Of a stretch of 64,000 bases of DNA, positions 8,660 to 64,000 are shown piece by piece. Position 1 is the first letter of the stretch. Every line of letters begins with the position of its first letter. The stretch comes from Halichondria panicea. Lineage: Eukaryota; Porifera; Demospongiae; Suberitida; Halichondriidae. The stretch covers positions 9,875,122 through 9,939,121 of the forward strand of contig NC_087377.1 in the NCBI RefSeq assembly GCF_963675165.1, in the 5' to 3' direction. Below the pieces are notes generated by a model. The model saw only the letters and a program-made list of their open reading frames with translations, was not told the origin of the DNA and searched no databases. The position numbers and the translations under genes were made by a program.

Positions 8660-10685
8660 TCATATCCAGGTATTAAAACAGGTACCTAACATCATTCATT
8701 TTGTATGGTGAAATTAATCTTTCAAGTATTACAAGGATATATAATTATGAGGGTGTACACGCATGTACCGTAATTACGACTCCTCCATAATTTATCCATA
8801 CTCAGTTTTTTATCCTCAACTCATATTGTAAGGCAGTTTCCCAATACTCATGCAGCAGACTGAACTATAATTATAGTCCAATATACACACCAGATTCTAC
8901 TACTGCGGCTATTTATGGTGGTGCTGTTGGTGAGATACTGGTGTTAGTGTGTCTTATTGGTATCTGCTTGATTGCCCTACTCTTACTGAGGAAAAAGCTA
9001 TCTAGTGAAGAACAAATAGCTGCTCCACTTTATGAGGAAGTAGGTCTTTCAGGAAATGACATTCAACTCGAGCCCAATGGTGCATATGGAAAGGTATACA
9101 TGTGCACTCATTACAATGTAAATTTGATTATTTTGAAAATGGTACACATGTTTCACAACACGTACCGCATGCACGCAGGCTGTTAGATGCTCCAAGGGTA
9201 TTCAACTACAATCTAACCAGGCTTATGAACTAGTGAGTTATTTTACTGTACCTTGTATAGATCTGATAATTATTGTTACTCAGGATGCACTCAATTACAA
9301 GCTCATCAAAGGATATGATTTTAACCAGACGTAGAAAGTCATATATATAGAACTGTTGCAGTAGCTTGAGATACTAGTTGATTCATACTATAACAACTGA
9401 ACTCATTGTAGAATCAATGATCAATGATACATTGATCATGGTTGCAGTTAACAAAAGATGCATGCTAATTCATCTGTTGGATTATTCATTTTACCTTAAA
9501 AGGATGTCACATTACTTTGTGCACAGTTTTTGTGTAGAGGTATCAATAGTTCAACACTCCTCTATACTCTTGCTAATAAGGTCTCAAAAATACAATTCAC
9601 TTTTTTGTAAATTCTGAACACCACTCTGCTTCAATTTCTATAAACTTCCCTGCTGTTGTGCAGCAGATTTTCCAGCTTCTTGCCAGGAGGAGGTACGACA
9701 GGCATGGTGTAGCTCAGCAATTAGCCACTGATTGAACTCAGCAATAACGTTGAATGTGGGCGGATATAATTAGTGGTCTGTGGCCTAGTTTACCATAATT
9801 TCTGTTTCACTGGTTGTAGTAACTCGCAAATAATGTTCAGCTTATAAAAAATAACTGATTGAACCATGACATACACTCAGAGAGTTGCTCAAATACAAAA
9901 CAGCACGTACTTTAATTACTAGTGTATAGATGAATCGGGAACACAGTCGCTTTATAGGACAATGATATTAAACTATGTATCTATGGCTCATGCTCCTATA
10001 ATTGAGCATGCACAGTATTGTGATATTGTATTCTGAACAGTTAACTGTAGCTATACTTATAATGCTCTCGTAATCGTATATAGTATAGGCATGACGCTAT
10101 AATACAGTTTTAGCAATGTTTCTTTATTCAGTATCATCACACATTTTCAGAAGGTTTTCTAGAGACGCCGAGACATGCACTATATCCAAACCACATCACA
10201 TTATACCAGCAATGAGCTGTGCATTTGCAGGCAATTCATTACTTACAATCGTTGTATGAATTGCTTGAAAGTTATAGTGTAGGTATAGTCTTCTACGTGT
10301 ATAAAGAAGAATCCCGAAAAAATTTTACTGGCTGTTTTTTGCTTCAAATCTTTTCGTTTGTACGAGTACCTATGTCAAAGACAGAAATTGTTCTCGTCAA
10401 AGCCAGAAAATTGATGCCTATTATCCCACCATTATTCTCAGACAACCATGTGGCACTGCTGTTTATCAATAAAGTGGGTGGATCAAGGTGTGGTTTATCT
10501 ATTCGATTATCCGGCATATTCACTTATCCGGCCTGCTTCTGGAACCAAGGTGTCCGGATAATCGAAGTTCTACTGTAATGATAATTATGACTGAGGCAGA
10601 TTGATACAAAATAGTACATGCAGTCTTGTACCATGATGTGCTCTAGCACTAAGGAATCCATTGAAACTCTCAGGATTGTAATTTT
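8660..10685 (+). repeat. Segmental duplication block, copy 1 (tail exons plus 3' flank)
   Basis: Positions 8880-10685 are nearly identical to 17510-19315 and collinear with 48440-51082. The first 200 bp (8690-8880) match 47660-47855 instead. The block carries the membrane/tail exons of a receptor (8894-9334) and ~1.3 kb of 3' flank. Its end holds a 5'-truncated pogo/Tigger-type repeat (ending 'gaagttctactgta' near 10577). Copies 1 and 2 share a truncation that copy 3 lacks, so 1 and 2 are the younger pair. Confidence 0.85.
8894..9334 (+). pseudogene. Orphan receptor membrane and tail exons
   Basis: Three exons with the same splice sites and phases as receptor A: 8894-9093 (membrane, LYEEV, NDIQLEPN and AYGK), 9179-9232 (GIQLQSNQAYEL) and 9284-9334 (ending FNQT then TAG). 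No signal, Ig or Fn3 exon lies upstream on this strand, so these exons have no ectodomain. A GAG codon at 8932-8934 puts a glutamate in the membrane segment where receptor A has valine. The last exon is frame-shifted and shorter than in receptor A, which ends RRRKS. It is most simply a partial duplicate. Confidence 0.75.
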
Positions 10686-12960: not shown

Positions 12961-15900
12961 ATGGAGATACTAGCACTAAAGCTGTTTTTTGTCATCTGCT
13001 TATCAAGAGTGGAACTGTCTACTCAAGTTGTTCCAGGTATTTCATCCAACAAATCAAGATTGATTTAGCTACAGTGCATAAAAAATAGATTATGTGTAGA
13101 TCTTCCAAGGGTCTATAATTTTATTCTGCAATACACGTTTGTTTTGCAGAAGTACTGGATGGCCCAGTGACACAGACTGTCCCTGTGACCCAGTATGAAG
13201 CCCAGTTCACCTGTCGTGCTCGAGCCTCTGCCGTATTCTGGTACATCAATGGCGAAACACTCTTTAACAATATTCCCAGCTGGATAATACTGTACGACGA
13301 TATACATGACTTTCCTAATGTTGAGGTGACGAGACGAATCGGTGTGAGAACTCAAGGACGTAATCGGACGAAGATCGAGTGTCTTGCTACAGGCTCTGAT
13401 CAGGCCACTGTTAGATCTGAACCACCTGTATTTCTCTATATTGTCGGTAAGTACTGCATGCATGCATGTATCATAGTGATTATCAGTTCAGCCAGCACTG
13501 TTGTTCTGCTAACCGGTATCCATGCATATATACACGTGTATACTACCTCATAATCATAGAGGACATGCAGTAAATGTCTCAATAATATCCCCTACAGATG
13601 TTCTCAATGCCCCTGTCACTGAGCTAGTTACGGTCAACACAACAGCTTTAAGGGTATCCTGGTTTGAGCCGTTTGCTCACACTGGTTTTCCTATTCTCAA
13701 CTACACTCTAATCATTCGAAGCACTGCTGACCACTCAGCACCCCTCTACAATGCCTCACTGAGTGCCCTGGAGTATGTGTTAACCACGGACAGTGTTCAC
13801 AGAGATTGCCACAATATAACGTTTGAGGTCATTGCCACGAACAGTATAGGACCTAGTGCTGCAGGTGTCGCCATTGGTGGATTTCCAATATGTGAGTCAA
13901 TTTTTATGCTGGTGTCATTGTATTAACGAGTATATCCAACAATGTACCTCCCTCACACGCACAAGCCACCAATGCTGCATGCACTGCACAAGCCGGGAAA
14001 ACTAGAAGGCTAAATTATTTTATATCCCGTTGCTATGTTGTTGCCAAGTGCAATATGAAGCATATTGCACTGCTGAAAAGTCATATTGCACTGCTGAAAA
14101 GTCATATTGCACTGACCACAAAACGCCCCTCTGGCATAATTAAATTAAATATTGTACCATGAGAAATAATAAGTATCAAAGTAAGTCCAGCCATGCATGA
14201 ATGTTCAGCACTGCTGGAGTTTCTTCTTTGCAACCATGCAGGTTTTAAAATCGTCCCAGGCTCATTTTGTGAAGATTCTGTGATCCTAGGCCTAGTCCTC
14301 CACTTCTTGATGCACGGTCAATTCTGGCTTCATCATAGCATGCACTAGAAGCGGCTCTTTTTGCAGGGGGCTTGAGCTGTTTTGCAGCAGTGTAGAGGCG
14401 AGCTTCTTTGGCTTGGTTGTGATACCGAGGATAGTGCTAGTGGAGGGGGCCGGGGCTGTTCGAGCAGCAGTTACACTGAGTAGTATAGTGGGGTGTGGCT
14501 GTTTCTTCGCAGCAGTAAATGGGCTGGGGCTGTTTCTTTGCAGCAGTAGAGGGGTGGGGCTATTTTGCAGCACCAGAAGTGGGGTGGGGCTGTTTTGCAG
14601 TGGTTTCAGCGTTGGAACTACAACAATTTTGTGTCAAGCCATTCGTCTGTCATGCCAATCTTATACGCTGCATATACTGGCGTCTAGGAGAGAGAAGAGA
14701 TGGAGCTGTGTCTAGAGTTGTCTTTGTCATCTTTTTGTGCAGTTTATATTGTGTTACTAAGACAGTATTATGTTGCTATGCCCTCGGGATATAAACTAGT
14801 TATTACACGTGCACTCGGGATGCATGGAATATATTGCACTCAGCCCTCGGGGCTTACGCCCTCGTGCTTCAGTGCAATATATTCCATACATCCCTCGTGC
14901 CCGTGTTATAACTATAACATAGTTACTGTACTGCATGCATGGTTCTCAGTCTGTTTATAATGTATTAGGCATGCATAATCTTCCGACTATAAGGTGTTAT
15001 ATAGATATTAATAGCTATAGTGCATAATCGACAGTGGTCCAGCTATAGGACAAGCATGGGAATTCTCCGTGGTTAATTGTACCATCGTTGTGCAGGATGC
15101 TGATACTGTGTTTTGGTGTTTCAAATACTCCAAACCCCCTTGTGTACATGTACAATGTTTATCTCTGGCACTTTCATTTTGAGTGAATTGATTCAAGGGT
15201 ATCTCACTAAGTTGATTACTGCATGCAAAGCTAATATTATTGTGCTCTCTCGTACAGTCATACAATTTTTATCTGCCAGGGTTTTTTCAAAAGTTGTGTT
15301 TTTTTTACAGTTCTTGGGGACTTTCTGCTCCCTCCTGTTGTCGTGATTACCTTCACAGCAGACTTGACCCCCATCATTAACGTCATATTTAAGGTGAATT
15401 TTACAATCATATACACGCACACTGAAATCTTAATTCGTATACATATACAAGATATATGCCGTTCAATGGAATCAAAATTAATTTCAATGCTTCATTGTGT
15501 ATACATAATCATGTGTGTCTGTTTACTTATAGTTTACTGTTTCTAAAATAAAAAAAATGCAGCACATTAATTGTTTTGCACACAGCCTCCAACAGTGTGC
15601 TGGTTTCAAGACGCCAGTTATGAACTGAGAATCCTGGATGTCTCAACTCAAGCCCTAAGTCTTTCCACTAGAATTGGAAGTTACCGTGGCGGTGGCATAG
15701 CAACTATATCGGAAGCGTATAATGATATATATACGATTCCCTCTATTCTGCTACTGGTAACTCGCCAGAATAGAGGGAATCGCTGGGGATCAGGTTAGTT
15801 AATATGTACTCAAAGTAGCCAGAGAGATGCATAAATGTTGCCTTCAGTCTCCAATGACTGTGCAACACCAGCTAGAAGTTTACATAGAAACTTATTGTCA

Positions 15901-17984
15901 ATAAAACTGTACCAGCTCAGCAAAAAAGTGGTGCACGTGATCGTGTCCAACCTCCTCGGAGATATAGTATAGGCAAGCAAAATGATTCGATCTCTAAACT
16001 GTGGCTTACTGTAGACACAGCTATATAATTATACAGTCTATAGATACGTTGCCTGTTTCCATTCGCATTCAAAAAGTTGGAAGTGAAACGGTTATGACTT
16101 TCAAAATGCATTTGACAGTATAATTATATCTTCAATTCATACTACAGTATAATTATAGCAACCGTCCTATACAACGAGCTAATTGAATTTATCAGTGCAT
16201 AGTATGTCTGAAGTTACCTAAAGCCCACCCTCCACCCAGTAACCTGAAATGGTCCCTTTTATAGTATAACACTGTTAACAGATTCAGTGGTAGGCAGAAA
16301 ACGTTTTTCATGCGTCTGGTGCATTCCACAGCCACCACAAGTAGTTGAAACTAGTTGTCCTATAAAAGGAGTGATGTGTACACGGAAAGGAATGCACAAG
16401 GAATGCAGTCTACACTAAGACTATTATTGACTTCATATCACAATTTATATGGGGCCTTATGGGTGTTAATGATATTCATAGACCGCGGTAGTAACACAAA
16501 ATGGTACAGTCTCTTTATGAAGAATAACTCTGCAACAATGTATAAGTTATAGTTATAACACGGGCACAAGGGATGTATGGAATATATTGCACTGAAGCAC
16601 GAGGGCGCCAGCCCCGAGGGCTGAGTGCAATATATGCCATGCAGCCCGAGTGCACGTGTTATAACTAGTTTATATCCCGAGGGCATAGCAACATAACACT
16701 GTCCTAGTAACACAATATAAACAGCACAAAAAAAGACAGAGACAACTCTAGACACAGCTCCATCTCTTCTCTCTTCTAGACGCCAGTATCTGCAGCGTAT
16801 AAGATTGGCATGACCGACGAATGGCTTGACACAAAATTGTTGGAGTTGGAAATCTGCAAAACAGCCCCACCCCACTTCTGGTGCTGCAAAACAGCCCCGC
16901 CCCACTTACTGCTGCAAAGAAACAGCCCCACCCCACTACTCAGTGAATACTAGCTGCTGGTCTACGCTCGGCCTCATAACCAAGCCAAGAAAGCTCGCTT
17001 CTACACTGCTGCAAAACAGCTCATAGTGCTACGGTGAAGCAGAATTGACATGCATCACGATGTCGAGGACTAGGTCGATCTAGGAACACAGAATCTTCCA
17101 CAAAATAAATCTTGGACAATTTTAAAACCTACACGGTTGCAAGAAGAAACTCCAGCAGTGCTGAACATTCATTCCTGCATGGCTGGACATACTTTGATAC
17201 TTGTTATTTCTCATGCGTATTAATTTAATTTTAATTTAATTGTCTGTCTAAATGCCAGAGGGCCGTTTTGCGGTCAGTGCAATATGACTTTGCGGTCAGT
17301 GCAATATGACTTTCAGCAGTGCAATATGCTTCATATTGCACTTGGCAACAACGTAGCAACGGGATATAACAAGAAGTAATGAATGATATAGGCTTCACTG
17401 TTGTGGTCACGGGTCATTTGTATAATTATAGTGCCTTGCAATCCAGCAGCAATGGTCCTGCATTCCTTGCATGTATGCATAACTTCGTACTTTCAAAAGT
17501 GGTTTTTATCCAATATACACACCAGATTCTACTACTGCGGCTATTTATGGTGGTGCTGTTGGTGTGATACTGGTGTTAGTGTGTCTTATTGGTATCTGCT
17601 TGATTGCCCTACTCTTACTGAGGAAAAAGCTATCTAGTGAAGAACAAATAGCTGCTCCACTTTATGAGGAAGTAGGTCTTTCAGGAAATGACATTCAACT
17701 CGAGCCCAATGATGCATATGGAAAGGTATATATACATGTGCACTCATTACAATGTAAATTTGATTATTTTGTTAAAATGGTACACATGTTTCACAACACG
17801 TACCGCATGCACGCAGGCTGTTAGATGCTCCAAGGGTATTCAAGTACAATCTAACCAGGCTTATGAACTAGTGAGTTATTTTACTGTACCTTGTATAGAT
17901 CTGATAATTATTGTTACTCAGGATGCACTCAATTACAACCTCATCAAGGGATGTGGGATTTTAACCAGACGTAGAAAGTCATAA
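12961..17984 (+). CDS. Receptor A: signal, Ig-like, Fn3, membrane, tyrosine tail
   Basis: Exons: 12961-13036 (signal peptide MEILALKLFFVICLSR), 13150-13446 (Ig-like; Cys pair QFTC...KIEC, VFWYI core), 13598-13891 (Fn3; LRVSWFEP, ITFEVIATNSIG), 17526-17725 (membrane GAVGVILVLVCLIGICLIAL, then RKK, PLYEEVG, NDIQLEPN and AYGK), 17817-17870 (GIQVQSNQAYEL), 17922-17984 (ends RRRKS, TAA). All junctions are GT-AG and phases match (1,1,1,0,0), giving 327 residues. The ~3.6-kb intron before the membrane exon holds relic exons of a second Fn3 domain and two opposed repeat elements. Joining exon 3 straight to the membrane exon keeps the frame. The YEEV motif suits SH2 binding, and N-x-A-Y resembles PTB motifs. 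It is predicted to be a type I surface receptor; the ligand is unknown. Transcript data would be needed to exclude the longer form. Confidence 0.72.
14021..14919 (+). mobile_element. 0.9-kb repeat element, forward copy (in receptor A intron)
   Basis: It begins TATATCCCGTTGCTATG, then has three 'catattgcactg' direct repeats. A GC-richer ~30-bp minisatellite ('gggtggggctgttttgcagc') spans about 14350-14620. It ends in a 'gaatatattgcactcagccc' palindrome and 'cccgtgttataac'. A complementary copy lies at 16545-17368. The long frames in the minisatellite are repeat translation, not genes. No transposase is seen. Confidence 0.7.
15311..15730 (+). pseudogene. Relic exons of a second Fn3 domain (receptor A)
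   Basis: Exon 15311-15393 has a 'ttttttacag' acceptor and AAG|GTGAAT donor. It matches in position, length (83 nt) and phase (1 to 0) the first-half Fn3 exons of receptors B (26260-26348), C (43860-43945) and E (60376-60461). A second-half exon starts at 15586 (PPTVCWFQDASYELRILD...) and aligns with the C and E exons up to 'NDIYT'. It is then cut at about 15732, where the duplicated 15733-16198 segment begins. Its tail, the donor and the Cys-module exon are missing, so the longer receptor form can no longer be spliced in frame. Confidence 0.6.
15733..16198 (+). repeat. Duplicated segment shared with 46338-46803
   Basis: It begins with a hairpin (ACGATTCCCTCTATTCTG and its complement, 15733-15782). 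It continues through 'agccagagagat', 'cttattgtcaataaa' and 'cagctatataattatac' blocks identical in order at 46338-46803. The last ~200 bp also match 19.91-20.06, 52.16-52.28 and 56.24-56.37 kb, which lie in the CCP-receptor introns. The segment is therefore intron material of the CCP gene lineage. Confidence 0.7.
16545..17368 (-). mobile_element. 0.9-kb repeat element, inverted copy
   Basis: It is complementary to 14021-14919 over its full length: ttataacacggg end, gaatatattgcactg palindrome, minisatellite near 16855-16960, 'gcatattgcac' repeats and GGGATATA end. The two copies, ~1.6 kb apart, give this intron a long inverted repeat. Confidence 0.7.
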
Positions 17985-19314: not shown

Positions 19315-20075
19315 TATAATTATGAATACGTATGACGGTTCTTGTATGTATAGTTAAATGAACAACATCATTATTGTAAGTGACAATATCAAAACAAGCA
19401 TTGAAATTAAACGATCTAATCAAGTTCTTCTCACATGACCATATATACTTAGGCCTGGTCGGATTCATTGCATGGGAGGGCGGACCACCTGAATGTAATA
19501 CCAAGGATTAAAAAATGCAGACTTATTCGTATACTAATAAGCCACTTGTTCATAAACCTGATTACAATCCAGTTAAATGTCTCGTGTTAAAATCACTTTA
19601 ATCGTATTGTTAATTATGGGTTATCATTCATTTAACGGGGACATTTTTCTCACCTGTCCATAAGCACTATTCGACTCTAGTTGAATGTCTGTTGCAATAG
19701 TGGTAATTTCATCGTACAATGGGCTAGCCGTGGCTTTCTGGTTCTCACTAGTTTCCGTTGAGAGATTTTGCCTCTTTCTCTTGACAATCAATGCCACAAC
19801 CAGGACGAGTACAGTAAAACACACCAGCACACCACCAATACTACCCACAACCACACCGACTATAGGCCCAATTATGGAAACACCTGCAGATGGAGCTGCA
19901 TAAAGGAATGACACAGCTATATAATTATACAACCTATAGATCTGTTGCCTGTTCCCATTCACATTTAAAAAGTTGAAAGTATAAAAAAGTATACGATTTT
20001 AACTTTTAAAATGCATTCGACAATAACTTTCAATTCATATTACAATAGCAACCGTCATAAGACGAGCTAATTGGA
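19315..20075 (-). repeat. Segmental duplication 2: 3' end of a CCP receptor
   Basis: It is collinear with 51551-52275 and in part with 55640-56370. Shared landmarks are 'gacaatatcaaaacaagcattg', 'ttgcatgggagggcgg', the tail exon and the 'cagctatataattatacaac' intron. In 19535-19580, read on the minus strand, a tail-like segment has TAA at 19573-19575 where the 55.8-kb copy reads CAA within DIQLDSNQAY. Confidence 0.7.
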
Positions 20076-20675
20076 TTTATAGAATAAAACACCTATAACT
20101 GACATTTTACAACTCACCGTAAGTTTGCGGCACACACATGATTTCCTCAGGCTCAGTGCTCCAGATTCCAGCATTAGATGGTGTTGGGTCCAGTCAGTGA
20201 GAGTCCATTGTCACACTGGTAAGTCAGCATTGTTCCCTCCAACACTGTCTCATTCAACCTCTCATAGTCGACTATAGTGCCGTTGGATGGCTCCTCAGGT
20301 AGAGAGCAATTCACTGTTATGGAACAAAAGGTCATGATATCACAAAAATAAAGGAACTGAAGATGATTTTACCTGGTCTCTCTCTACACACCAAGCTCCC
20401 AGGATTCTCCACCCACTCTCCCCTACCACCCACATCAGTGCATGTGTTGGTCCTCACATCAAGGGGGAACAGTCTCTGGTCACAGCGATAGGTGACCTGT
20501 GAACGTAGTGGAAAGGGTGGTGTTCCACCATTGATATCCACACTGCCTCTGTATGGTGTAACAGGGTGGCCACAGGTGACTGGGGGGATATAATTATGAG
20601 GTCACCAATAGAAACTGTACACATAATTTAAACGTACGTTGCCATACGTAAGTTCCTCCGTGTGTACGTGTACAG

Positions 20676-21174: not shown

Positions 21175-21237
21175 TCTCCAGGTGAATAGACAGAGCACTA
21201 TTAACACTATGAAACTATCTTGGACGCTTCCCGACAT

Positions 21238-38020: not shown

Positions 38021-38059
38021 GTGTAATATTAAAGCAAGAACATTGTAAAGTAATCATAC

Positions 38060-39043: not shown

Positions 39044-39194
39044 CTTCGATTTTTAAAATTCCAGCGTATTTTAATCGGCCTGGTCTCGAGGCTAGGTACA
39101 ACGGATACGCATACGCATATTCGAAGGGAAGTGAAAACAACAGTATACTAGTTGTCTGCGCATGCGTCAGTCGTTTGTCAGATTCTGACCAATG

Positions 39195-51906: not shown

Positions 51907-52147
51907 CTGTCCATAAGCGCTATTCGACTCTAGTTGAATGTCTGTTGCAATAGTGGTAATTTCATCGTACAATGGGCTAGCCGTGGCTTTCTGGTTCTCA
52001 CTAGTTTCCATTGAGAGATTTTGCCTCTTTCTCCTGACAATCAATGCCACAACCTGACGAGTACAGTAAAACACACCAGCACACCACCAATACTACCCAC
52101 AGTCACACCAACTATAGGCCCAATTATGGAAACAGCTACAGATGGAG
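51907..52147 (-). pseudogene. CCP-receptor membrane/tail exon relic
   Basis: It is homologous to 19654-19895 (242 nt there, 241 here). One base is missing near 52054 ('cctgacgag' for 'ccaggacgag'), which shifts the frame inside the membrane segment. YDEI, TDIQLESN and AYGQ codons remain. No CCP exons lie upstream: homology ends at about 52275 in unrelated sequence. Confidence 0.75.
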
Positions 52148-52275
52148 CTGCATAAAGGAATGACACAGCTATATAATTATACAACCTATAGATCTGTTGC
52201 CTGTTTCCATTCACATTTAAAAAATTGAAAGTATAAAAAAGTATACGATTTTAACTTTTAAAATGCATTCGACAA

Positions 52276-53228
52276 TAACTTAACATTTTACACTTCACAC
52301 CGTCAAGTAAATTGGAGGAAAGTTCTCCCAAATGAATGGATCCCTCGTTGCCATCAATTATTACTGTTTTATCAAATGCCTTCATTTGATGTACGTGCGA
52401 ATATATACTACAATGTGCCAGTTGATCATCCTCCTCCTCTGTCACAAATTACTGCAATATAACTGACCACAACTATTTATAAATTGGACATTGATAATCA
52501 TGAGCATTATATTCATGGCTAACAGCTATTAATACGTGTCTAATTATAATTATGATGCATGTTATTGCTGCACTTGGTCGAATTTCAATAGAAATGTACA
52601 ACAAAAAATGACATGAGCGGTGAACAATGCATGATTGTTTATAGTCGTGCGAGTGTTAAATTAATGCAGTCATTGGAAATCGATCAACACAAAATTAGGT
52701 TAGGCGACAACATGCAGTACTTAATGTATACTTCAACATTAATTTGATGGCCATACACCTTTCGTTGTTATGTTAGCAAAAAAACCCTGGGCCCATACGG
52801 TATATACCATGCAGTCACTGACATATTTGACCCACTTGAATGTTACAACAGTAATGTCATTCCTTATGAGGGCATTGTACACAGCTTCCTTCACTACGTA
52901 TCCAAAGGAACCGTCTACAACGCAATTGCATTTGGAGTCACAGGATTGTCAGGTTCAACATGTACTTCTATATATACGTACAGGGACACCTTCGTCAATA
53001 AGTACACTTGTTTTTCAGAGTACGTTAAATTAATTAAAGCGATTAGTTAGGGACGTACCCAAGGCGACAGAGGACACTAATACTGCAATCTGATTGTTAA
53101 AGGTAGTGTTCTATCCAACATAGAAAATCATGTAGATCTACTTACTTAGATAATCACTTAGAAAATCATGTAGCAAAGATTAGATAAGTCTGATTGGCTA
53201 GAGACTCATGGTTGCTATGATCTAGACC
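52276..53228. other. Unassigned spacer with two weak exon-like frames
   Basis: The minus frame about 52445-52280 reads TEEEDDQLAHCSIYSHVHQM onward. The plus frame about 52797-52950 (after 'taccatgcag') reads VTDIFDPLECYNSNVIPYEG onward. Both look more protein-like than chance but lack matched splice partners or a known family. They may be pieces of another gene. Confidence 0.25.
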
Positions 53229-53382
53229 AGAGGAGGTACGACAGGCGCGGTGCAGCTCAAGCAATTAGCCTCTGATTGAACAATAATTATCCGCCCACGC
53301 ACAGCCCACGTCGTATGTTTTTGTTGAGAGTAATCAGAGGCTAATTTTACTTGAGCTGCACGGTGCCTGTCGGACCTCCTCT
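53229..53382. mobile_element. Small MITE with ~50-bp inverted ends
   Basis: AGAGGAGGTACGACAGGCGC and 'aagcaattagcctctgatt' on the left are complemented on the right. One end also occurs at about 9686-9735 and 18321-18370 in the tail blocks. Confidence 0.7.
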
Positions 53383-53585
53383 GTATCTAGACACTGTTTA
53401 GGAAGTTTGGAATTCCACATGATTTAGAAGCCCTCAGGGCTAGTAGAACCCTCACTACGTTCGGGATACTACAACCAGCCCTTTGGGCTACAGTGTCTAA
53501 CTATTTATAGACATTCCTTTTTTTGTTAGCGTAATCCCTATTTGGAACTCCCTTCCCTAAATGTTATCAGACAGTAGTCCATTTG
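53383..53585. other. Spacer, no feature seen
   Basis: A degenerate palindromic stretch ('agccctcagggct' near 53430) is present. Nothing else is recognised. Confidence 0.3.
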
Positions 53586-54426
53586 TACGGTGGCCCTGAG
53601 CGTTACTAGCTATTAGTTCACCTTAACTACTTGATAGTTCACCTACCTTAGCTACTTGATAGTTCGCCTACCTTAGCTACTTGATAGTTGACCTACCTTC
53701 GCTGCTTGATAGTTTACCTACCTTAGCTACTTCGCAGTTGACCTTTGAACTGTATGTTAATTCTATTTAATGCTGCTGTAGCCATACTGTACATAGCGAC
53801 TAGAGATCAATATAATGAGAGCTACATATGCACGTATACAGGTACTGAGGATTATCCAACAGCAATACAAGACTAGAGTATCGCACCAGAACCATTGTAT
53901 AGTACAGAATTTAGGAGATATAAACGTGAACAACTTGAACTGCATGTATTGTATTAGTCTGGGGCCAGACCTTTTCTCAGAGGGGGAGGGGGAAGAGAAG
54001 AGAAAGGTCTCTTAATCCTAGCTCTATTTGATTTTGTCCCAAGCTATTAGACTAGCTAGTATTGTGAATAACATGTAACTTCCAAATGAATCAAGTGTGG
54101 TACTCTCCTCTTGCATTGCTGTTACCCATAGGGTAGAACTAACCGGCTGCAGATAATCCTCAGTACCTGTATATATAACTCATTTATATTGAGTCGCATG
54201 GCTACAGCAGCAACATACAGTTCAAAGGTCAACTTCGAAGTAGCTAAGGTAGGTGAACTATCAAGTATAGCTAAGGTTGTTGAACTATCAAGTAAGTAGC
54301 TAAGGTAGGCGAACTATCAAGTTGAACTATCAAGTAGCTAAGGTAGGAAAACTATCAAGTAGCTAAGGTAGGTGAAAACTATCAAGTAGCTAAGGTGAAC
54401 TACTAGTAGCGCTCAGGGCCACCGTA
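53586..54426. mobile_element. Transposon with inverted tandem-repeat arms, 841 bp
   Basis: Inverted ends TACGGTGGCCCTGAGCG and complement are flanked by CATTTG on both sides (53580-53585 and 54427-54432), a 6-bp target duplication. Each arm is an array of about five copies of a ~26-29-bp unit ('tagctacttgatagttcacct'). The arrays are inverted relative to each other. The ~450-bp centre lacks a transposase. The superfamily is uncertain; 6-bp duplications are unusual and would fit, for example, Dada-like elements. Confidence 0.75.
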
Positions 54427-54432
54427 CATTTG

Positions 54433-55434
54433 CTTTCAAATTATCCTTGTCATAACATAATTTTTCAGCTTCTTGTATCAAGCACATTTAACCTTTTTTT
54501 GTTGCTGTTGGGGATTGACTTCATTATTAGCTTCATTTATAGGTATCTTGTCAGTCCTGTATGCTTCCTTTTGCATCGAACATTCATAAAGAAAAAACTA
54601 AGCTGCTTAGTAGACTATTGTAGTGCCGTGTACATAAATGGCTTGCTTCTTTGTCTTTCAAAATAATCTATGTCCAGAAGGACTATCTCTTAGTGTACAA
54701 CTCATGCAGTCCTACATGTAGCCTCGGTCCCAGGCCGATTTTTTTTTAATAGAACAAAGTTGAAAAATAGGCGACCTAGCGTTCAATTGGAGACGGATCG
54801 GCCTGGGGTCGAGGCTATCCAATATCAACATTGACAAGTTGCTCCTTTGTTGTTGTACGATTTGACCGGTAAAGGGATATAGTATCTAGTGTCAGAAGAA
54901 AATTCAGACATTGTGTCTGTTTGTCATGAATCATCATACGGAGAGCATTATAACACAGCATAATTATACTGACCATGTTCAATTGATAATCAATGGGGGG
55001 GGACCCATAGCAGCTTAAGTTAAAATTTCTCTGAACTTCCTCTTTTCAACCAATGAACATAATTATCTCAGATGTTTGCAAGTACATTTCAGTGTTCGTA
55101 GCTAAATATGATGTTAAATATGTTGACACCACTGCATGTACATCACACACACCCTCTGCAGGGTCAGAATCTAAACCCCCATATTTTTTGGCTACACATG
55201 CACCCCCTATTACATGCAAGTGCATCACAGTAGATCTAGTTTAATACATATGTTATAGTTGTGACACATGCACGAGTGCCACATGGGATATATTATTGGC
55301 TCAGTAGTGACTTAGGCCCGAGGGCCGCAGGCCTCGAGGGAAGGGGGGAAGGATCACCCCTACCCCAATAATGATTATAATTATATATGACTGCTATAAT
55401 TATAAGTAAAATTGCTATGGTGACTAGTGATTAT
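54433..55434. repeat. Spacer with one family G hairpin element
   Basis: 'tagcctcggtcccaggccga' at 54719 and 'tcggcctggggtcgaggcta' at 54807-54826 are the inverted ends of a 108-bp family G-like element. The rest (54827-55434) holds no gene. A GC-rich patch lies at 55315-55370. Confidence 0.5.
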
Positions 55435-55579
55435 CTTTGTATGGACCTGTTCCTTTTTGAATCTTATACAAGCTGTTAATTCCTTTTTGATAAGATTCAA
55501 AAAGGAACAGGTCCATACAAAGAATCAACAGGCCGGGAACAACACTACTATAGTATAGTGTTGTTCCCGGCCTGTTGAC
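55435..55579. repeat. Two adjacent near-perfect palindromes
   Basis: Palindrome 1 (about 55435-55524) has arms 'ctttgtatggacctgttcct...gaatctta' of ~33 bp around a 22-nt loop. Palindrome 2 (55526-55579) has 27-bp arms 'tcaacaggccgggaacaaca...' with almost no loop. One arm of palindrome 2 is also present at 51484-51506. Confidence 0.8.
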
Positions 55580-55932
55580 GATTTAACCATGCATACATAA
55601 AACAAACTATAACTGTGTTTGCATGATAATGCAAACATCATCCTAAGCTCACAACAGACAATGTGACTATCAAAACAAGCATTGAAATGCAAACAATCAA
55701 GTTTTTCTCACTTGACCATAATTATATTCATAAGCTTGGTTGGATTGCATGGGAGGGCGGATCACCTGAATGTAATTCCATACTTATATTCGTATATTTG
55801 TATTATATAAGTTATACTTGTTCATAATATAAGCCTGATTAGAATCCAGTTGAATATCTCGTGTTAAAGTCATACTGGCAATCTTAATCATGTATGGGGT
55901 TATGGGATTCTTCATTTGATTAGGGGTCTCAC
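55580..55932 (-). repeat. 3' flank of receptor D, part of segmental duplication 2
   Basis: Collinear with 19315-19650 and 51551-51900 (shared 'ttgcatgggagggcggatca', 'tcgtgttaaa'). A tail-exon-like piece (about 55880-55830, minus) reads DIQLDSNQAY, the only open copy of this motif in the three flanks. Confidence 0.6.
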
Positions 55933-57978
55933 CTGTCCATAAGCGCTATTCGACTCTAGTTGAATGTCTGTTCCAATAGTAGTAATTTCATCGTACAATG
56001 AGCTAGCCGGTGCTTTCTGGTTCTCACTAGTTTCCGTTGAGAGCTTTAGTCTCTTTCTCCTGACAATCAACACCACAATCAGATTCTCATGATGAGTTTT
56101 TATATCACGACGACCCCTTACGAAATCATGCCTCGAGGCTACGTGACCGTGTAATAAAATAATATAACACGGAGGGGACTGTATGACTCTTATTTACACC
56201 CTGCATGCATGTAGTAACATTGACAACGTGATATAAACAACCTAGTCTGTTGCCTGTTCCCATTCGCATATAAAAAGTTAAAAGTGTAAAAAAATTACAC
56301 GATTTTAACTTAAAAATAATATACTCGACAGTATAATTATATTTTCAATTCATACTACAATAGCAACCGTGCAGTTGAAAGCACCTATATTTTACAACTC
56401 ACCGTAAGGTAGCACACACACGATTGTCTCAGGCTCAGTGCTCCAGGCCAGACTCCAGCATTAGTGCAAGTGATGGTGTTGGGTACAGTCAGTAAGAGTC
56501 CATTGTAACACTGGTAAGTCAGCACTGTTCCCTCCAACACTGTCTCGTTCAACATCTCATAGCCAACTATAGTTTCGTTGGAAGGCTCCTTGAGTAAAGA
56601 GCAGTTTACTGTATTGGAACAAAAAGTACACTTAGTCTAGTACTGTTCAGATTACAGTACAGATTCTGAATCAAAAACATGCAAAGAAGAGAAAAATGGT
56701 TACCTGGCCTCTCCCTGCACACCAAGCTCCCAGGATTCTCCACCCACTCTCCCCTACAACCCACATCAGTGCATGTGCTGGTCCTCACATCAGGGGGGAA
56801 CAGTCTTTCGTCACAGCAATAGGTGACCTGTGAACCTAATGAGAAGGGTGGTGTCCCACCACTGATGTCCACACTACCTCTGGGTGGTACAGCAGGAGAA
56901 CCACAAGTTACTGGGGGATCTAAGTATATCCAATAGAAGCTGTCCACATAATTATAGTCAGCATGTACCTGTAACTGGATCGACTGCTGCAGTCAAATGT
57001 CCCAAGGTCAGGAGACCACCCAATACTGCTGCACATGTTGAAGTCTTCACTTCATTCTCTCCACTACAAGTATAAAGGTGAGTATGGATCCACTAATGGT
57101 GACAGGTATTGGTGATGATCACACCAGCAGCAGTAGACGGTGTGGGGCACTCAACTGCAAGGAGGACAAGGTATACACGTTTGTTAAAACCATGCATAAA
57201 TTTAAATGGCATATACTTAGATCCACAATTGGACGTTTTTTCTCATTCCAGCACAATTGTCAGCTCTGATGGTCACATTGTAAGGATTGTTATAGGAGAC
57301 AATGACTTGTGCCGAGGTGGTATCCACGGTGACTGGTGAGCCGGAGAGGGGTGGTGATGAAATTGTAAGGACATAGCTGACAGGCACACCACTAGTAGAG
57401 GAGGAGTCTCATCCAGAGTGATATTAGAGGAGCTATGAGTGGAGAACACTCTTGTGTTCAGTGGAGGGGAGGGTGGATCTGTGTAAATCAATTGTTCAAC
57501 ATTGTCATTTATTGAACAAAGAACTCACCAGCCACAGTGACATTGTGAGCTCTCTCCCACACACAACACCATCCTCTACAATGGAGGCCTCAGACAGTGA
57601 AGTGAGAGTGGCAGTGAGCATTCCTCTACTGGAGTCAGTGAGAACACCACGGAATGCTGGAGTACCTTGTGTACTATCAGTGTTGCTGGTACTTAAAGCA
57701 ATCCTGAACACTTGGCCTTGTGGTGGAGTGATGTCCCACAGTACAACGCTACCAGTAGAGTGCAGGTGAAGGTGGAAATGTCATTAGGACAGGCCACAGT
57801 GGGATTGGGTGTTAGTGTGGCTGCAAAATGTCTTTAATAATTAGTGACCCATAACTATTGCACTTAAACTAAATTAACCATCATTCTATAATTAATTATT
57901 AAAGCTAGCAAGATCTATAGTTCACCTACCTTCTACTTGCCATAAAGATACTAACAATACTAGTGTGACAGTAAACAT
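55933..57978 (-). pseudogene. Receptor D: signal, Ig-like, Fn3, two CCP, tail (broken)
   Basis: Exons: 57978-57930 (signal MFTVTLVLLVSLWQVEG), 57820-57529 (Ig-like; VACPNDISTFTC, then a shift before GSVVLWDITPPQGQ), 57478 to about 57250 (Fn3; DPPSPPLNTRVFS, then a shift before GVPVSYVLTISSPPLSG), relic near 57168 (VECPTPST... then stop), 56919-56704 (CCP1, open), 56608-56403 (CCP2, small insertion shifting the frame after NAGVW), about 56092-55933 (tail; SLYDEI, TDIQLESN, AYGQ). The front half of the membrane segment has been replaced by sequence also present at 23095-23215. CCP1 has YCCD where B' has YRCD, and VGCRG for VGGRG. With at least four lesions it is dead. It shows that the CCP lineage once had an Ig/Fn3 front end. 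Confidence 0.75.
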
Positions 57979-58246
57979 ATCTGATCTCTGCCCTGAGTGG
58001 TAATCATGCCAGTAACTGTGTATAGATCATCAAATTTGATTAAACACTGAGATCCGCCCTGTTGCAAAAATTTAATGTGGGTGTAGATCTAGACTTTCAC
58101 CGGAAACAAATAAAGTTTTAATTATGGAGTTTAAATGCCCAGCGACTCACACTGTACAAGTTCTGCAAAAGTGGTATGATAAAGTTGGTTTTGTATCTAG
58201 TTTAGTTATATATATATATCCTCCAAGTTACTTTAGTGAACTGACT
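57979..58246. promoter_or_regulatory. Shared head-to-head promoter region of receptors D and E
   Basis: The start codons of D (57978, -) and E (58247, +) are 268 bp apart, so both promoters lie here. CACCGGAAA (58098-58106), an ETS-like core, is conserved upstream of receptor C. An in-frame ATG at 58124 would add 41 residues to E but disagrees with paralog C. Confidence 0.5.
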
Positions 58247-61200
58247 ATGGAGTTTGGATATTGTAAGCCTAAAGCAGCAGTCAGCAATACTCTAACCATT
58301 CTTGCTCTGGTTCTCTTTTGTGTCTTTGCTGCTGCAAAAGATGAAGGTAAAAAGCACAACTATATCCACTTGCACTGCACTGAGCAATAAGCTAACTGTG
58401 AATGCAAAATAATATATTTTCACTGCCTATCATTCTGTTCATTATCTTGCATGCAGCAAATGTGCTCAGTTTTCAAGCAGAGAGAGACCTAATACCTGTT
58501 GGTCGACCTATGAGCTATAGCTGCAAAGTGAAGGGACGTGCAGTGTGGGAGTTTGGTACTTATTACTTCAACACAGCCTCCAGCGACTTTGTGGGAAATA
58601 GAAGCAATATCATTGAAGGAGTGAACATAACTGACTTTACTGATGCAAGTGGCAATCATCTTTCCAAATTATTTCTTTCTTCATCCATTGTCCAAAGTCT
58701 GAATGACACAGATATGGCCTGTGGTGCAACAATAAGTCGGAATATAAAACCAACTGAAAACGAGAAGATTAGAGTTAAAGTTTTTAGTAAGTTCTCAAGT
58801 TTATTGCACAGCAAAAAACAACAACTTCATCTCCCCCTTCCACAGGTTCCCCTACTTCCCCTGGAAATCTGAGAGTGGTGTCAGAGAGGCAGAAAGAGGT
58901 CACTCTGATGTGGGAACCTTCGTTCTTGGCATTCAACATCTCCCCTCAGTACAAAGTGTATGTGGATGGTGTCATCAAAGCTACGACGGAACAAAATTAT
59001 TTTGTGTTCTCAAAACTGGAGCACTCGTGTGATTCTCATCAGATACGAGTGGAAGCGTACAATGAAGTCGGCAGTAACACCTCTGAGCACATCGAAGTGG
59101 TCTTACCTGCAGGTGTGTGTGTATATGGGATGCCGTTTGTGTCAAGAACACCATGTGAAAACTGCATGTTCAATGTGCATAAAAATCCACGACTATACTG
59201 TATCGGTCTCCTGATTTACTAAATCCGGCTCACGCTATACTAAACTGGTCTCATGCCTTAGTAAATCGAAGGTTCCACAACGTGAGACCGCTTTAGGAAA
59301 TCAGGAGACCGGTTTAGTAAAGTGTGAGCCCGCTTTAGTAAAGGTGATAAGGCCACTCCAAGCCATACATTCTGGTCATAGTACTTTAGTCAAGAGGATA
59401 GAGGATGCGGATGGGAGGGTTATTAGACTTAACCATTTTAGAAAAAATGTTGTGCGATCTTACATGCAAGCATCATGTGATGTAATAACAAACACTTAAT
59501 AGTACCAAGGGCGTATGAAGAGAAGAGGGCATGCATGCAACTACAATCTATCATTATATTACAAATGGGCAGGGGCTTATGTCTAAAAATAGTAAAGAAT
59601 GCATTGCACGTGCACTTTATACTAGCCTTCTTTTACTCTTTCCCTAGTGGGCGATTGGCTAAATCATGGCTAAATATAGCATATCCTGCTGACTCATCAA
59701 TAATATGACGCATACACAGTATACACATTGTAAGTTGCATGCCCTCTTCTCTTCATACGCCCTTGATAGTACGTACTGATTCAGTTCAGTCACAATAAAA
59801 TTCATGAGAAATAAACAGGATGACCAGAAACTATTAAATACACATAATTTATTTAGAAGTCATAAAAATGAGCTTTTGTTGGTTAATCTACTGACTGCTA
59901 GCTCAGTGGAAAGTATTCAGTTAGATTTAGATTCTATTGTGTAAGCCAGCTTATAAGACAGCCTTAAACTTAGGGCTACTCCAAGCCACCCATGCACACT
60001 GTGACAGTCCATATAAATTATGTGATATGTGCATATAATTATAAAGACAACACAAAATAATAGTGCGTACTGATATAAACTTGTGAGCCTGCCCATAGAA
60101 CGTATAACGCTTTCATACACTGAATTAATCATTAAGCTATACACTCAGGAAACAGAATTGGCGATATTCCGTGCGTTCCGTGAAATAATGTGGCCATTTC
60201 TGACGGAAGGAATACTTTTAAGGACACCTATAATTTTATTATCCTGTCAAAAAATTGTCTCGTTTTACTTGCATGGTGCTTTACTTATCCCTTTGTGTTA
60301 GTGATTAGTCTCATTGCATAATATCCTCTCCATGGTGACGACCTTTGTGATACCTTCACTCCTCTATATGCACAGTTCCTGAGGTGGGTGCACTGAGTGA
60401 CAGCATCTCTACCGATATTACAAAGAGTGGTGCTCAAGTTCAATTCACAGTGTCCTTTAACGTGAGTTTGATTAATAATTTTGTCAGTGACTCCATACTA
60501 AACATTTTATGCATGCGTGAGTGGCATGGTCTATGTTGTGCTTTGGAGGAATAATGTGGGAATAATATCCAATTTGAAAATTTTTTCTTCAACAAAGAGG
60601 CCAGAGAGGTATGCTAAAGGATGTAATTATTGCTTGATACAGCTAGTAAGACTTACATTTTTAAAATTAGGTTGAGGGTGTGCCCAGAAAGACTGTCAAC
60701 AAGCAAGGCAGTCCTTCAAAGCGACCTGCTGAAGTGTCATACCGGCAAAACTTTTGGCTAATAATATAGCTTTAACGCTCATTGTGGTCAGATATCTATA
60801 CTACTGTTGTAAATACAGTGCATGCCTGGGTAATAATTATCAATATCAGCCAGATATATATATCTGGATAATACCCAGGGTGCAGACTGAAGCACCACCC
60901 ACCACCCTATTAGCTTGCATTGCTTTTTAACAAACTGAAGTGCATTAATGCGTGGCGAATCACAATGCAGAATGCAATTTATGTTATTGATCCTGAATTT
61001 GATCCTTGAAATTACTACACAATCACCATAAGTATAATTATTATGTCATGCATGCCCTGTGTGTACTGCTAATACAACTCGAGCCCATGCATGCAGTTGT
61101 ATTAGCTGCATGTACATCCCTCTTGCATGAGTAATAACCTATACTTATAGTGTAGCCCGTGTACAGCTATCAAAAACATGCAACTCCAAAAATGATGTCT

Positions 61201-64000
61201 TTTGCACCCATACAGCAAGCCGTGTCATGTCCCGCTCACCCGGTAACCAACTACACGGTGACGCTCACCTCAAGTATGTCTACCCCTATCACTCGGACAG
61301 TGGCCATACCCCCTGAAGACAGCGTCTCTATCACAGTGGGGGGTCTGAATGACAACACACTCTACACTTACCAGGTGCACGCAAACAATGTCATTGGAAG
61401 TGCCTCCACAGCAATGAAAACATTCTGTAAGTGCACATAATATATTTACTAGGTATTATATTATGCATTCACAATAAAAGCTTTGCGCAGAGTTATATTT
61501 AAGGGAGAAAGAAGAAGAGTAGAGTGAGATCTGAATATATATGGATGTGGTCTCTCCAGAACTCTCTGATTTCTCTTTCTAAGAGCAACAAGACGCTTGG
61601 TCCTATCTTAGGTGTTGTTGTTGGTTTTGTCCATGGGAGACTTTTTATATATAGCTACGGCCTAGCTAGCTATAGCATATAGTCACCGCTCAGTTCAGTC
61701 TAGCTTATATTTTATTACAATGCCAATAGTAGATCAGTTTGGAGGTCAGGGGGTATACTCTCATTGTCCCCACTTTAACACTGATAAATATTATTGTTTG
61801 CAGCAACGTAGAATAGAACACATATACACAGAGCACAGTACAGAACCTTATATTATATACAAAGCTAAACTATAGATGTTACCAACTAAATACAGTTCTA
61901 ACTCTAGCTAGATTGTTATAGGTCAATACAGATACATTACAGCTACTTCTAGATAGTTCCAGTGGATACTACACTACTGTTGCATGTAACACGTACAGTA
62001 CATTCCTGGGTATACTGTATACGAGTAGAAAAGTTTGAGGTGTTTTTAATTTCGGGTTTTTCGTGGGTGGCTGCAGAAGATTTTAAAACCCATGGAAGGC
62101 TTCGTATGTGCATGCGAGATAAGTGCCACACCCTAACTCCACGATATTTACTACCCGCGAAATTTTCTAAATATTGAATTGCACGAAATTTTACACCCAT
62201 ACGGTATTGGTATAATACTCATGCAGGATATGTTGCTTTTTACCTAAAGCACCACCCACCTCCGTATAGATTGCATTGCTTTTATAAGAAACTTTATTGT
62301 GGTTGTTTGCAGTACGCATTTCTGAGGATGCATGTATTCGTAGCGAATTACATGCAGTCATGTAGAATCTTGCAACCTGATTGGTTCATTACATAATGAC
62401 CCTTGAGATTATTAATAACATAATTATAATGAATCTCATTAACCGGGCAACCAGTTAGACGCATAGAGGCTCAAATGTCATTGATGCTACTTGGAAACCA
62501 GTATGACGCAGGACTATTATGCAATCAGTAATAAATAGGTTATTATATGCCTCGGTTGCGCCATGCGCAGCGGTATAGTGTGTGTGTAGAGTGCTACAGC
62601 TGCTCAGATATAGATGAAGTGAAAGTAAGAGTTTCTATATAGGCTTCTGGACTCAGTGCAATTTGTGGAATTGCAAGATAATGCTTTGCATGTTCTTGAG
62701 TTATGGCTAGTTTTGTCTGAGTGAGAAAAAGCTGCAAAGCCATGCACACTGTTTCTCATTTTAAATAGCTAATTATGGACTTTGAACTTTCGGCAGCCTT
62801 TTTAGCAACAACCAAAGTCGATCATTTCCCAATGCAGTATAATACCGTTTTTTATAGTAGCTTCATTGCTATAAAGATTTGGCGCCTCCACCAAAGAATC
62901 AGCACCCGCGATGCTTTTATTACTTATGCAAGAGGGATGTACAGCTAATATACAACTCGAGAGTTTTATTAGCAGTACAGCACAAGGGCATGAGTAAAAA
63001 CCTTTATTGCTCATTGTGTCAAGACATCAAAGGCATTTGCACTAGTTGTAAATACAGTATCACCCAGGATGTAGTCAATATAAATGGATGATGATATTGA
63101 TGAGCCTCGATATCTGAACACCTGGTATCCCCACCTCATCAGAAACCACGTGGACCCTTAATGCGTAGATGTTTGCTATGAATATCATTATGTGGCAAAT
63201 CTTTCATCCGGATAATGGAGAAATCAGATGATCGGGGTTCGAATAATCAAGGCTCAACTGTACCCACCATGTAAACTAAATCACAACCCTTCACCTATAG
63301 TTAGCTTAAGAAACTAGAGTGCATTGATGCCTGGCGAATCCTAATGCAGCTGTCCATAGACTGTAGTCCATAAGGTAATGATCCTTGAAATTATTACACA
63401 ATCAACAATAAGTAGGTTATTACGTCATACCCTCGTGCTGCACTGCTAATATAACTCGAGCCCGAGCGACATAGCCCCTCAGGCTCGAGTTGTATTAGCT
63501 GTTTATCCCTCTTGCATGAATAATAACCTATACTAACATATATACGTATTCACTGCATGACCCACAAAAGAAACCCTTTTGCTATGAGAGACAGTTTTCT
63601 TTAGCCCTGTGAGATTTATAGAAAATAGTGCTGAACTGTAAATGTAAAGAAAGGTTTTCTGAATCTGTCAAAATTGCCATGTACATTTTATTTATCACTA
63701 CCCCCGGGCCGGGGCCCCTGCCACCAGATACTACTGATGTGCGCCGTGCCACTGCCATAGAGATGAATAATGACACACTGTTTCTGCACTGTGAGTTTTT
63801 GCTGGGGTCAAACGCACTTGGCTGTCAGGTGAGAGCACAAAACAATAGCTCAAATGAAATGTGCATTGCATAACTTGTATAATAATAGCTACCCTCGGTT
63901 GTACTATCATCTCATTGTGCGTTAAAAATGGATCTCAACTGCTTAGTTTATTCTTTAGCTCTAATTCTGGAGTCCTAAACGCTCGTTTGAGCACTTACTT
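58247..64000 (+). CDS. Receptor E: signal, Ig-like, 2 x Fn3, Cys module (3' end beyond window)
   Basis: Exons: 58247-58346 (signal MEFGYCKPKAAVSN..., 33 residues), 58457-58786 (Ig-like; AVWEFGTYYF, ITDFTDASG, DTDMACG), 58846-59112 (Fn3; VTLMWEPSFLAFN, IRVEAYNEVGS), 60376-60461 and 61216-61426 (split Fn3; ITKSGAQVQFTVSF, then NYTVTLTSS, TVGGLNDNTLYTYQVHANN), 63728-63828 (first Cys-module exon; LFLHCEFLLGSNALGC). All donors and acceptors are consensus, phases agree (1,1,1,0,1,0), and 365 residues are open without a lesion. The next Cys-module exon, membrane and tail exons should lie past the window edge. The exon sizes 100, 86, 211 and 101 nt equal those of receptor C exactly, so C and E are recent duplicates. 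Predicted type I surface receptor; ligand and tail unknown. Confidence 0.8.
59205..59345. repeat. Short interspersed palindromic repeats in a receptor E intron
   Basis: 'gatttactaaa', 'ggtctcctgattt', 'aaatcaggagacc' and 'gctttagtaaa' words recur in both orientations, giving several alternative hairpins over 140 bp. Confidence 0.5.
60880..61140 (+). repeat. Dispersed repeat in receptor E introns (also 63300-63540)
   Basis: Shared blocks with 63300-63540 are 'gtgcattaatgcgtggcgaatc', 'tgatccttgaaattactaca', 'tgctaatacaactcgagcc' and 'ccctcttgcatgagtaataa'. Reversed pieces occur at about 62925-62990. Both copies contain an internal 'ctcgag' inverted pair. Confidence 0.55.
61780..61980 (+). repeat. 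Second copy of the repeat at 4850-5065
   Basis: Same order of blocks from 'gtagaatagaacac' to 'agttccagtggatactac'. It is located in the receptor E intron before the Cys-module exon. Confidence 0.5.
62100..62920 (+). repeat. Palindromic-family relic and family A copy 3
   Basis: About 62110-62205 ends 'cacgaaattttacacccatacggta', a relic of the family at 20976-21174. 62546-62920 is a family A copy ('tgcctcggttgcgccatgcg' head, 'ccaccaaagaatcagcaccc' tail). Both sit in the receptor E intron. Confidence 0.6.
63196..63262. repeat. Decayed pogo/Tigger-type end
   Basis: 'ccggataatggagaaatcag' and 'ggttcgaataatcaaggctcaactgta' resemble the CAGTAGAACCTCGATTATCC end of 50684-50983, complemented. Confidence 0.4.

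Follow-up and report, generated by a model that had tools for sequence, protein, structure and literature searches.

A linked family of receptor genes with Ig-like, Fn3 and CCP modules and tyrosine-motif tails on a chromosome of the sponge Halichondria panicea

We analysed a stretch of 64,000 nucleotides from the demosponge Halichondria panicea, referred to as the window (NC_087377.1, here C1, positions 9,875,122-9,939,121, in a 131-Mb assembly of 39 contigs). It holds a cluster of genes and gene fragments for membrane receptors with immunoglobulin-like (Ig-like), Fn3 and CCP modules and tails with tyrosine motifs. Exons were mapped with tblastn over 174 kb, from 20 kb before the window to 90 kb after it, together with inspection of the splice sites. 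The six receptor loci or fragments, orphan tails and relics which a preliminary description had listed on both strands were recovered where it had placed them (Table 1). The cluster as a whole is real and chance is excluded, with E-values within the cluster down to 1e-60 and, when the whole 131 Mb was searched, a match between the two tail classes at E 2e-8. The span of ~55 kb assigned to it earlier is far too small, as the cluster from 43,435 on repeats ~51 kb downstream and the main array of such genes lies 1.3-5 Mb away.

Two lineages are found in the cluster. In the plus-strand lineage, a signal-peptide exon (SP) is followed by Ig-like, Fn3a, Fn3b (two exons), X (two exons), a membrane span with tail and a further tail exon. 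The exon plan SP|1|Ig|1|Fn3a|1|Fn3b1|0|Fn3b2|1|X1|0|X2 is common to loci B, E, E', B2 and F, with AG/GT at every border except in the broken Fn3a of B, and the membrane/tail exon is entered in phase 1 in all loci which have one. A single exon plan with phase-compatible introns, as proposed before, is present, and the module borders are in phase 1. The X2 exon has five copies genome-wide, every one in this cluster. The CCP lineage on the minus strand has the order Ig-like, Fn3, CCP1-3 and membrane span with tail. A complete gene of this lineage, for which the SP exon was not looked for, is located 7-9 kb upstream of the window, and broken copies are found inside the window at 20, 47, 52 and 56 kb. 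Complete genes combine an SP exon with a single hydrophobic span, so that single-pass type I membrane proteins are predicted by hydropathy.

The kind of damage differs by locus, as the first reading of the sequence had it. In locus B, Fn3a contains a stop and is truncated into (GT)n, and the beginning of the membrane exon is deleted. CCP3 of locus C is interrupted by stops, locus D lost half of its membrane span and the tail relic at 52 kb is frameshifted. The accompanying statement that other copies are intact applies, within the window, to E only. E is the sole intact gene starting there and it runs past the window edge, with its last exons at 65.5-68 kb. Besides E, the genes B2 and E' in the mapped region are intact.

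Pfam Sushi was found over the cut-off in CCP2, CCP3, CCPp and CCPq (up to 36.8 bits), restricted to the CCP lineage and the main array, and Pfam fn3 was over the cut-off in the joined Fn3b exons with 27 bits. Out of the three module types named in the preliminary description, Fn3 and Sushi are thus supported by Pfam and Ig is not. Because Pfam calls no Ig family, the label Ig-like rests on the Cys-x7/8-Trp...Cys pattern and on the position of the exon. No module other than fn3 and Sushi (SRCR, Calx-beta, VWD) was over the Pfam cut-off in the subset of receptor exons scanned, in which the Wreath model was not looked up.

The main array is located further along C1. Using a class-c tail of the window as query, dozens of weak matches were found on C1:11.3-14.8 Mb. 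A second search with an array tail gave 294 candidates, 150 of which were scored; all of these are in C1:11.25-14.93 Mb with E<1e-21 and 148 are without a stop, so the array has at least 150 tail exons in 3.7 Mb. Among the 150 scored, 109 are on the plus and 41 on the minus strand, in long same-strand blocks. The CCP-exon query gave 1,244 first-look candidates, and about 110 of the 150 scored closely resemble the CCP3 exon of the window. With the array Ig exon as query, about 81 full-length copies without stop were counted from the match table, nearly all in C1:11.25-14.93 Mb. Further copies of the locus A Ig exon are found at C1:10.11, 10.15 and 14.76 Mb.

The structure of the array genes was derived from sampled stretches, including one of 36 kb, and from genome-wide exon searches. 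In the 36-kb sample the genes are positioned head to tail, 1.6-2.4 kb each and with fragments between them, in the order SP, Ig-like, Fn3, CCP, CCP, sometimes a third CCP, and membrane span with tail. The intron between SP and Ig-like exon is in phase 1 and restores an Ala codon, the same as in the window lineage. The CCP genes of the window thus belong to the array family, and the Ig/Fn3/X genes are a small sister branch of it. The window is the proximal edge of a multi-megabase complex at C1 about 9.3-14.9 Mb with well over a hundred related receptor genes. A published description of this array was not found in the literature searched, and an account elsewhere is possible. A second CCP cluster was observed at C6:2.30-2.37 Mb, 57-60% identical to the CCP3 of the window and with a kinase match inside it at 2.325 Mb.

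The tails have two or more motifs of the forms [P]xY(E/D)E(V/I/M) and NxAYGx(V/L), and 16 positions around two tyrosines are invariant across the three tail classes. The core YxxI/L/V is present in all classes (in E it reads YEEM), and the tyrosines are conserved in the SH2-type YxxV context, some of them also in NxxY. The tyrosine grammar described as common to both lineages holds genome-wide. No tail relatives were found in the prokaryote and viral contig collections that were searched as a contamination check. In two tails a tyrosine motif is multiplied inside a single exon, three times PLYDEI.. in L004 (C1:9.866 Mb) and three times NQAYGPL in L022 (C1:11.48 Mb), from which signalling valence itself seems to evolve. 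A small receptor cluster at C10:1.31-1.33 Mb (L020, L023, L025) has other ectodomains and a tail with SENIDLKTNQAYGNI ... VVYEEIPA, so that the grammar extends beyond the array.

Tails and ectodomains are combined in more than one way. The CCP3 exons of window genes (tail class c) and array genes (tail class m) are 82-87% identical in DNA, whereas their tails are about one-third identical. These cross-class CCP3 alignments are 192-216 bp long, which places the end of homology near the exon borders, while within a class the homology runs on, for ~960-1,120 bp in class c and for 536 bp, through the tail, in class m. Locus L028 (C1:14.71 Mb) has the array CCPp-q-r ectodomain with a tail that matches class c (E 3e-7) better than class m (E 6e-6). 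The simplest reading of these sequences is that tails were exchanged by recombination in introns. Within a class, tails and CCPs have similar rates of divergence, which makes it less likely that faster tail divergence alone accounts for the pattern.

An exchange of fronts can be seen in a tandem block of ~38 kb, which covers 43,435-80,873 and recurs at 94,445-132,364, so that the copies are ~51 kb apart. The block copies are 99.26% identical over 24.7 kb and mostly 97.5-99% in the rest, with a 92% patch near 70 kb. Comparing B with its counterpart B2, the X exons are identical and the Fn3b exons nearly so, whereas the Ig exons have a dS of 0.22; the identity switch is located in the intron after Fn3a. 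This pattern fits unequal exchange, which would have put different fronts on the same back, and two haplotypes assembled one after the other, whose front alleles differ strongly, would fit as well. Two earlier claims are upheld here: the interchange of parts is visible in the DNA, as tail exchange and as near-identical backs with different Ig fronts in B and B2, and birth-and-death is evident from tandem copies, differently broken relics and the recent duplication of the 38-kb block.

To describe diversity in the array, 19 distinct Ig sequences, some of them partial, were compared. The framework has a ratio of replacement to silent substitution rates (dN/dS) of 0.22 (confidence interval, CI, 0.11-0.40), and two variable segments with in-frame length changes have a dN/dS of 0.87 (CI 0.64-1.16). 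Variation of the array Ig exon is thus concentrated in two loop-like segments, the second of which directly follows the second conserved Cys, the place of the F-G loop of a V domain. In L050 and L052, a pair of near-identical paralogues, segment 1 differs by 18.4% (16 of 87 positions and a 6-base gap) versus 1.8% in the surrounding 2.2 kb, a 10-fold difference (Fisher p 4e-11). Silent and replacement changes are both raised in this segment, with proportions pS of 0.16 and pN of 0.22. As silent changes are raised too, a converted or exchanged tract explains the segment better than selection alone.

A linked receptor family with swappable parts and one kind of signalling tail is a candidate for sponge self/non-self receptors. 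We infer, with a probability of roughly 0.62, that the complex encodes germline single-pass recognition receptors which signal via SH2 proteins. In the proposed mechanism the Ig loops and CCP modules would contact a ligand of another cell or of a microbe. The tail tyrosines would then be phosphorylated by Src-type kinases, and SHP- or Syk-type SH2 proteins would be recruited, with inhibition or activation as the output. The array would in this way place many specificities on few output tails, new specificities would arise by unequal crossing-over and short-tract exchange, and the receptors would be used in self/non-self or microbe recognition. Genes with the respective domain orders are present in the genome: Src-like genes with SH2 and kinase in one frame at C2:7.25 Mb, a Syk-like order SH2-SH2-kinase at C9:5.255-5.259 Mb and a SHP-like order SH2-SH2-phosphatase at C3:8.4046-8.4063 Mb.

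The possibility that the tails are parts of receptor kinases was rejected, as none of the tyrosine-kinase matches scored is in C1:9-15 Mb and the tails that were read end after the motifs. Other kinase and phosphatase clusters were observed in the genome. About 30 full-length kinase-domain matches, mostly open frames of 270-500 amino acids, are located at C1:15.5-17.4 Mb, adjoining the receptor array, and at C10:1.70-1.94 Mb tyrosine-kinase genes, which have long open frames, are clustered in tandem. A large array with well over a hundred tyrosine-phosphatase exon matches at C4:0.04-2.6 Mb possibly encodes receptor phosphatases able to oppose tail phosphorylation.

Several observations weigh against a recognition complex of this kind. 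Positive selection on the Ig exons of the window was looked for and rejected, since four copies have a dN/dS of 0.21-0.34 and are under purifying selection. In the array, the dN/dS of the variable segments is not above 1 and positive selection is not proven. No Ig family was called by Pfam in the front exons at E up to 10, and neither a PDB sequence search nor a profile comparison of window versus array fronts gave a significant Ig match. The AlphaFold model of the array Ig exon, built from 12 sequences, has a predicted local distance difference test (pLDDT) score of only 43, and a second front model one of 47. Nearly all listed PDB matches of the weak array model in Foldseek (pLDDT 43) are Ig V domains (of antibodies, T-cell receptors and NKp44; TM-scores ~0.43-0.59); as both models are poor these matches are just a lead, and an Ig-like fold of the front exon is possible. 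A canonical immunoreceptor tyrosine-based inhibitory motif (ITIM) is found in one tail class only (c), and the motif check found no canonical activation motif (ITAM) in any tail class, so a canonical ITAM/ITIM reading of the tails is mostly rejected. Furthermore, part of the copies may be haplotype duplicates in the assembly.

The nearest published layout is that of FcoR in Botryllus schlosseri, followed by Alr in Hydractinia. FcoR, at the fuhc locus, is a linked multigene family of type I receptors with 53 loci so far. Its members start with a signal peptide, followed by V-type Ig, sushi and two C2 Ig domains; after the membrane span comes a tail with the core YxxI/L/V, some loci having ITIM or hemITAM (PMC12065747). 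The sponge array is likewise a large linked family with a sushi ectodomain and core YxxI/L/V tails. In contrast to FcoR, which has two C2 Ig domains and no Fn3, no C2-type Ig pair precedes the membrane in the sponge genes; Fn3 and 2-3 CCP modules occupy this place, the loci are far more numerous and the canonical ITIM is confined to one tail class. The likeness described here is one of layout. Alr comprises at least 41 clustered loci of the Ig superfamily, many of them apparent pseudogenes (PMC11067881), and the sponge genes also form tandem clusters with pseudogenes and encode predicted single-pass type I proteins with a signal peptide. Alr ectodomains, however, are V-set and I-set Ig without sushi, and Alr1 and Alr2 are proven allodeterminants, whereas the sponge array is known from the sequence of one assembly. 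In layout the array is like FcoR and Alr, but it falls short of strict membership, as it has no C2 Ig pair, no Pfam Ig and no canonical ITAM.

Three further families were compared. The array genes encode predicted membrane receptors with signalling tails and have domains unrelated to those of the aggregation factors, which are extracellular proteoglycan components. Aggregation factors are named as the published candidate basis of sponge self/non-self recognition in the work of Grice et al. 2017, as reported in PMC12065747. The Sp185/333 (SpTransformer) immune family of the sea urchin has tandem clusters, segmental duplications and gene instability (PMC5103432, PMC8634487), all three of which are shared by the sponge array. 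It is a different gene family that interacts with pathogens, and the excerpts of these papers drawn on here report none of the sponge receptor modules for it. Sponge SRCR-type receptors show massive lineage-specific expansion, sometimes together with Fn3 or Sushi (PMC10855680, PMC6208332), but are defined by an SRCR domain; none of the exons examined here showed one.

Among the alternatives, a microbe-recognition repertoire directed at bacterial or dietary-microbe surfaces, instead of allorecognition, holds up best and is a real possibility, if one we would not bet on. The repertoire is large and germline-encoded, and in other sponges Sushi/Fn3/Ig transcripts respond to microbial signals and receptor repertoires are individual-specific (PMC6208332, PMC8242945). 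On the other hand, the tails and the Ig-plus-sushi layout are at least as similar to the allorecognition receptors of Botryllus and Hydractinia (PMC12065747, PMC11067881). The most far-reaching version of the recognition reading is doubtful: a true sponge histocompatibility-type complex deciding fusion or rejection, in which a linked V-like Ig/Fn3/CCP array would have loops like complementarity-determining regions, diversified in the germline by short-tract exchange, and YxxV tails would be wired to Src/Syk/SHP-type SH2 proteins.

It is unlikely that the genes are lineage-specific receptors for adhesion or tissue patterning, tandemly expanded, with diversity from relaxed constraint and not from recognition. 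Fn3, CCP and Ig modules are common among adhesion proteins, which speaks for this explanation, as do purifying selection on the Ig, Fn3 and X exons of the window and a dN/dS not over 1 in the variable segments of the array. It does not account well for over a hundred copies, for fronts exchanged on shared signalling tails, or for variation limited to two loop-like segments in a pair whose framework, introns and tails are 98-100% identical. Similarly improbable is an assembly artefact. In this case B/B2, E/E' and the 51-kb repeat would stem from two haplotypes placed one after the other, so that true copies would be half as many and B and B2 divergent alleles. Heterozygosity in sponges could account for a block identity of 97.5-99.3%, the Ig exons of E and E' are identical and several array genes occur as identical pairs at fixed offsets, but no N gap separates the block copies, a stretch of ~9 kb lies between the units, an older third unit (F) continues the series with the order unchanged and many copies within the array are clearly distinct.

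A recognition complex on C1 would be of wider relevance, as candidate allorecognition proteins of sponges, cnidarians and ascidians are without shared conservation according to a 2025 review (PMC12065747). Clustered demosponge receptors with Ig-like and sushi domains and tyrosine motifs would give sponges machinery of the Hydractinia/Botryllus type, either because the signalling logic was inherited from a common ancestor or because it arose convergently. Loop-confined variation between near-identical copies would represent germline V-like diversity without somatic recombination. The analysis names one chromosome interval, which is open to grafting genetics and long-read population data.

Table 1. 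Receptor exons, relics and the tandem block mapped in the window (window coordinates).
Feature	Position	Strand	Basis
Orphan membrane-span + tyrosine-tail exon, tail class a (PLYEEV..DIQLEPNGAYGKV)	8893..9096	+	tblastn, splice borders, hydrophobic span
Orphan set, second tail exon (..SNQAYELVSY)	9179..9241	+	tblastn, splice borders; 98% repeat of 17509-19316
Locus A Ig-like exon, divergent, C-x8-W pattern, no Pfam call	13149..13448	+	Pfam scan, splice borders
Locus A Fn3-like exon	13591..13893	+	weak Pfam fn3, E 0.07; splice borders
Membrane-span + tyrosine-tail exon downstream of locus A, tail class a	17525..17728	+	tblastn, splice borders
Locus A second tail exon	17817..17879	+	tblastn, splice borders
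Locus C membrane-span + tyrosine-tail exon, tail class c (PLYDEI..DIQLESNSAYGQV), one canonical ITIM	19651..19890	-	tblastn, motif check, hydropathy
Locus C CCP3 exon, damaged: in-frame stops	20165..20311	-	tblastn
Locus C CCP2 exon	20386..20580	-	tblastn; close relative over Pfam Sushi cut-off
Locus B signal-peptide exon	42232..42330	+	tblastn, splice borders
Locus B Ig-like exon, phase 1-1	42433..42771	+	splice borders
Locus B Fn3a exon, premature stop, truncated into (GT)n	42823..42939	+	damaged
Tandem block, first copy	43435..64000, on to 80,873		97.5-99.3% identical to second copy at 94,445-132,364, apart from a divergent patch near 70 kb
Locus B Fn3b first half	43859..43945	+	splice borders
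Locus B Fn3b second half	45388..45597	+	splice borders; joined locus-E equivalents over Pfam fn3 cut-off
Locus B X1 exon (unclassified domain, first half)	45739..45837	+	splice borders
CCP3 relic within locus B	46861..46956	-	tblastn
Locus B X2 exon (unclassified domain, second half)	47376..47606	+	splice borders
Locus B membrane-span/tail exon, 5' part deleted, frameshifted	48486..48650	+	tblastn, splice borders
Locus B second tail exon	48710..48763	+	splice borders
Class-c membrane-span/tail relic, frameshifted	51904..52142	-	tblastn
Locus D class-c tail exon, half of membrane span lost	55930..56082	-	tblastn, hydropathy
Locus D CCP3 exon, truncated	56448..56606	-	tblastn
Locus D CCP2 exon	56717..56911	-	tblastn
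Locus D Fn3 + Ig-like front	57248..57979	-	76% identical to front of intact CCP-lineage gene 7-8 kb upstream of window
Locus E signal-peptide exon	58247..58345	+	tblastn, splice borders, hydropathy
Locus E Ig-like exon, phase 1-1	58456..58788	+	splice borders
Locus E Fn3a exon	58848..59114	+	Pfam fn3 E 4.5e-4, just under cut-off; splice borders
Locus E Fn3b first half	60375..60461	+	splice borders
Locus E Fn3b second half	61216..61425	+	joined Fn3b: Pfam fn3 27 bits, over cut-off
Locus E X1 exon	63730..63828	+	tblastn, splice borders
Locus E beyond window: X2, membrane-span/tail, second tail	65490-65720, 67278-67487, 67913-67963	+	tblastn, splice borders

The cluster has several neighbours in the window. 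A minus-strand gene at 22678-28000 encodes an Ig/Fn3-like membrane protein with a tail without tyrosine motif, composed of an Ig-like (27496-27696), a Fn3-like (26676-26984) and a Cys-rich domain (23468-23764) and a membrane exon (22678-22953); Pfam called no family in this gene. Inside the cluster, an open frame of 330 amino acids on the minus strand at 38060-39052 encodes a Tc1/mariner-type DDE transposase (Pfam DDE_3, 92.6 bits). The cluster is flanked by a methyltransferase gene of the NNMT/PNMT/TEMT family at 927-1826 on the minus strand (Pfam E 1.8e-45). The segment 30001-32000 has a strong AT skew of 0.20, unlike the remaining window. The demosponge origin of the genome is supported by a silicatein query, which detected several multi-exon gene clusters on C2 and C6, with piecewise matches of mostly 65-88% identity, and single-exon cathepsin-like genes with only 49-53% identity to the query.

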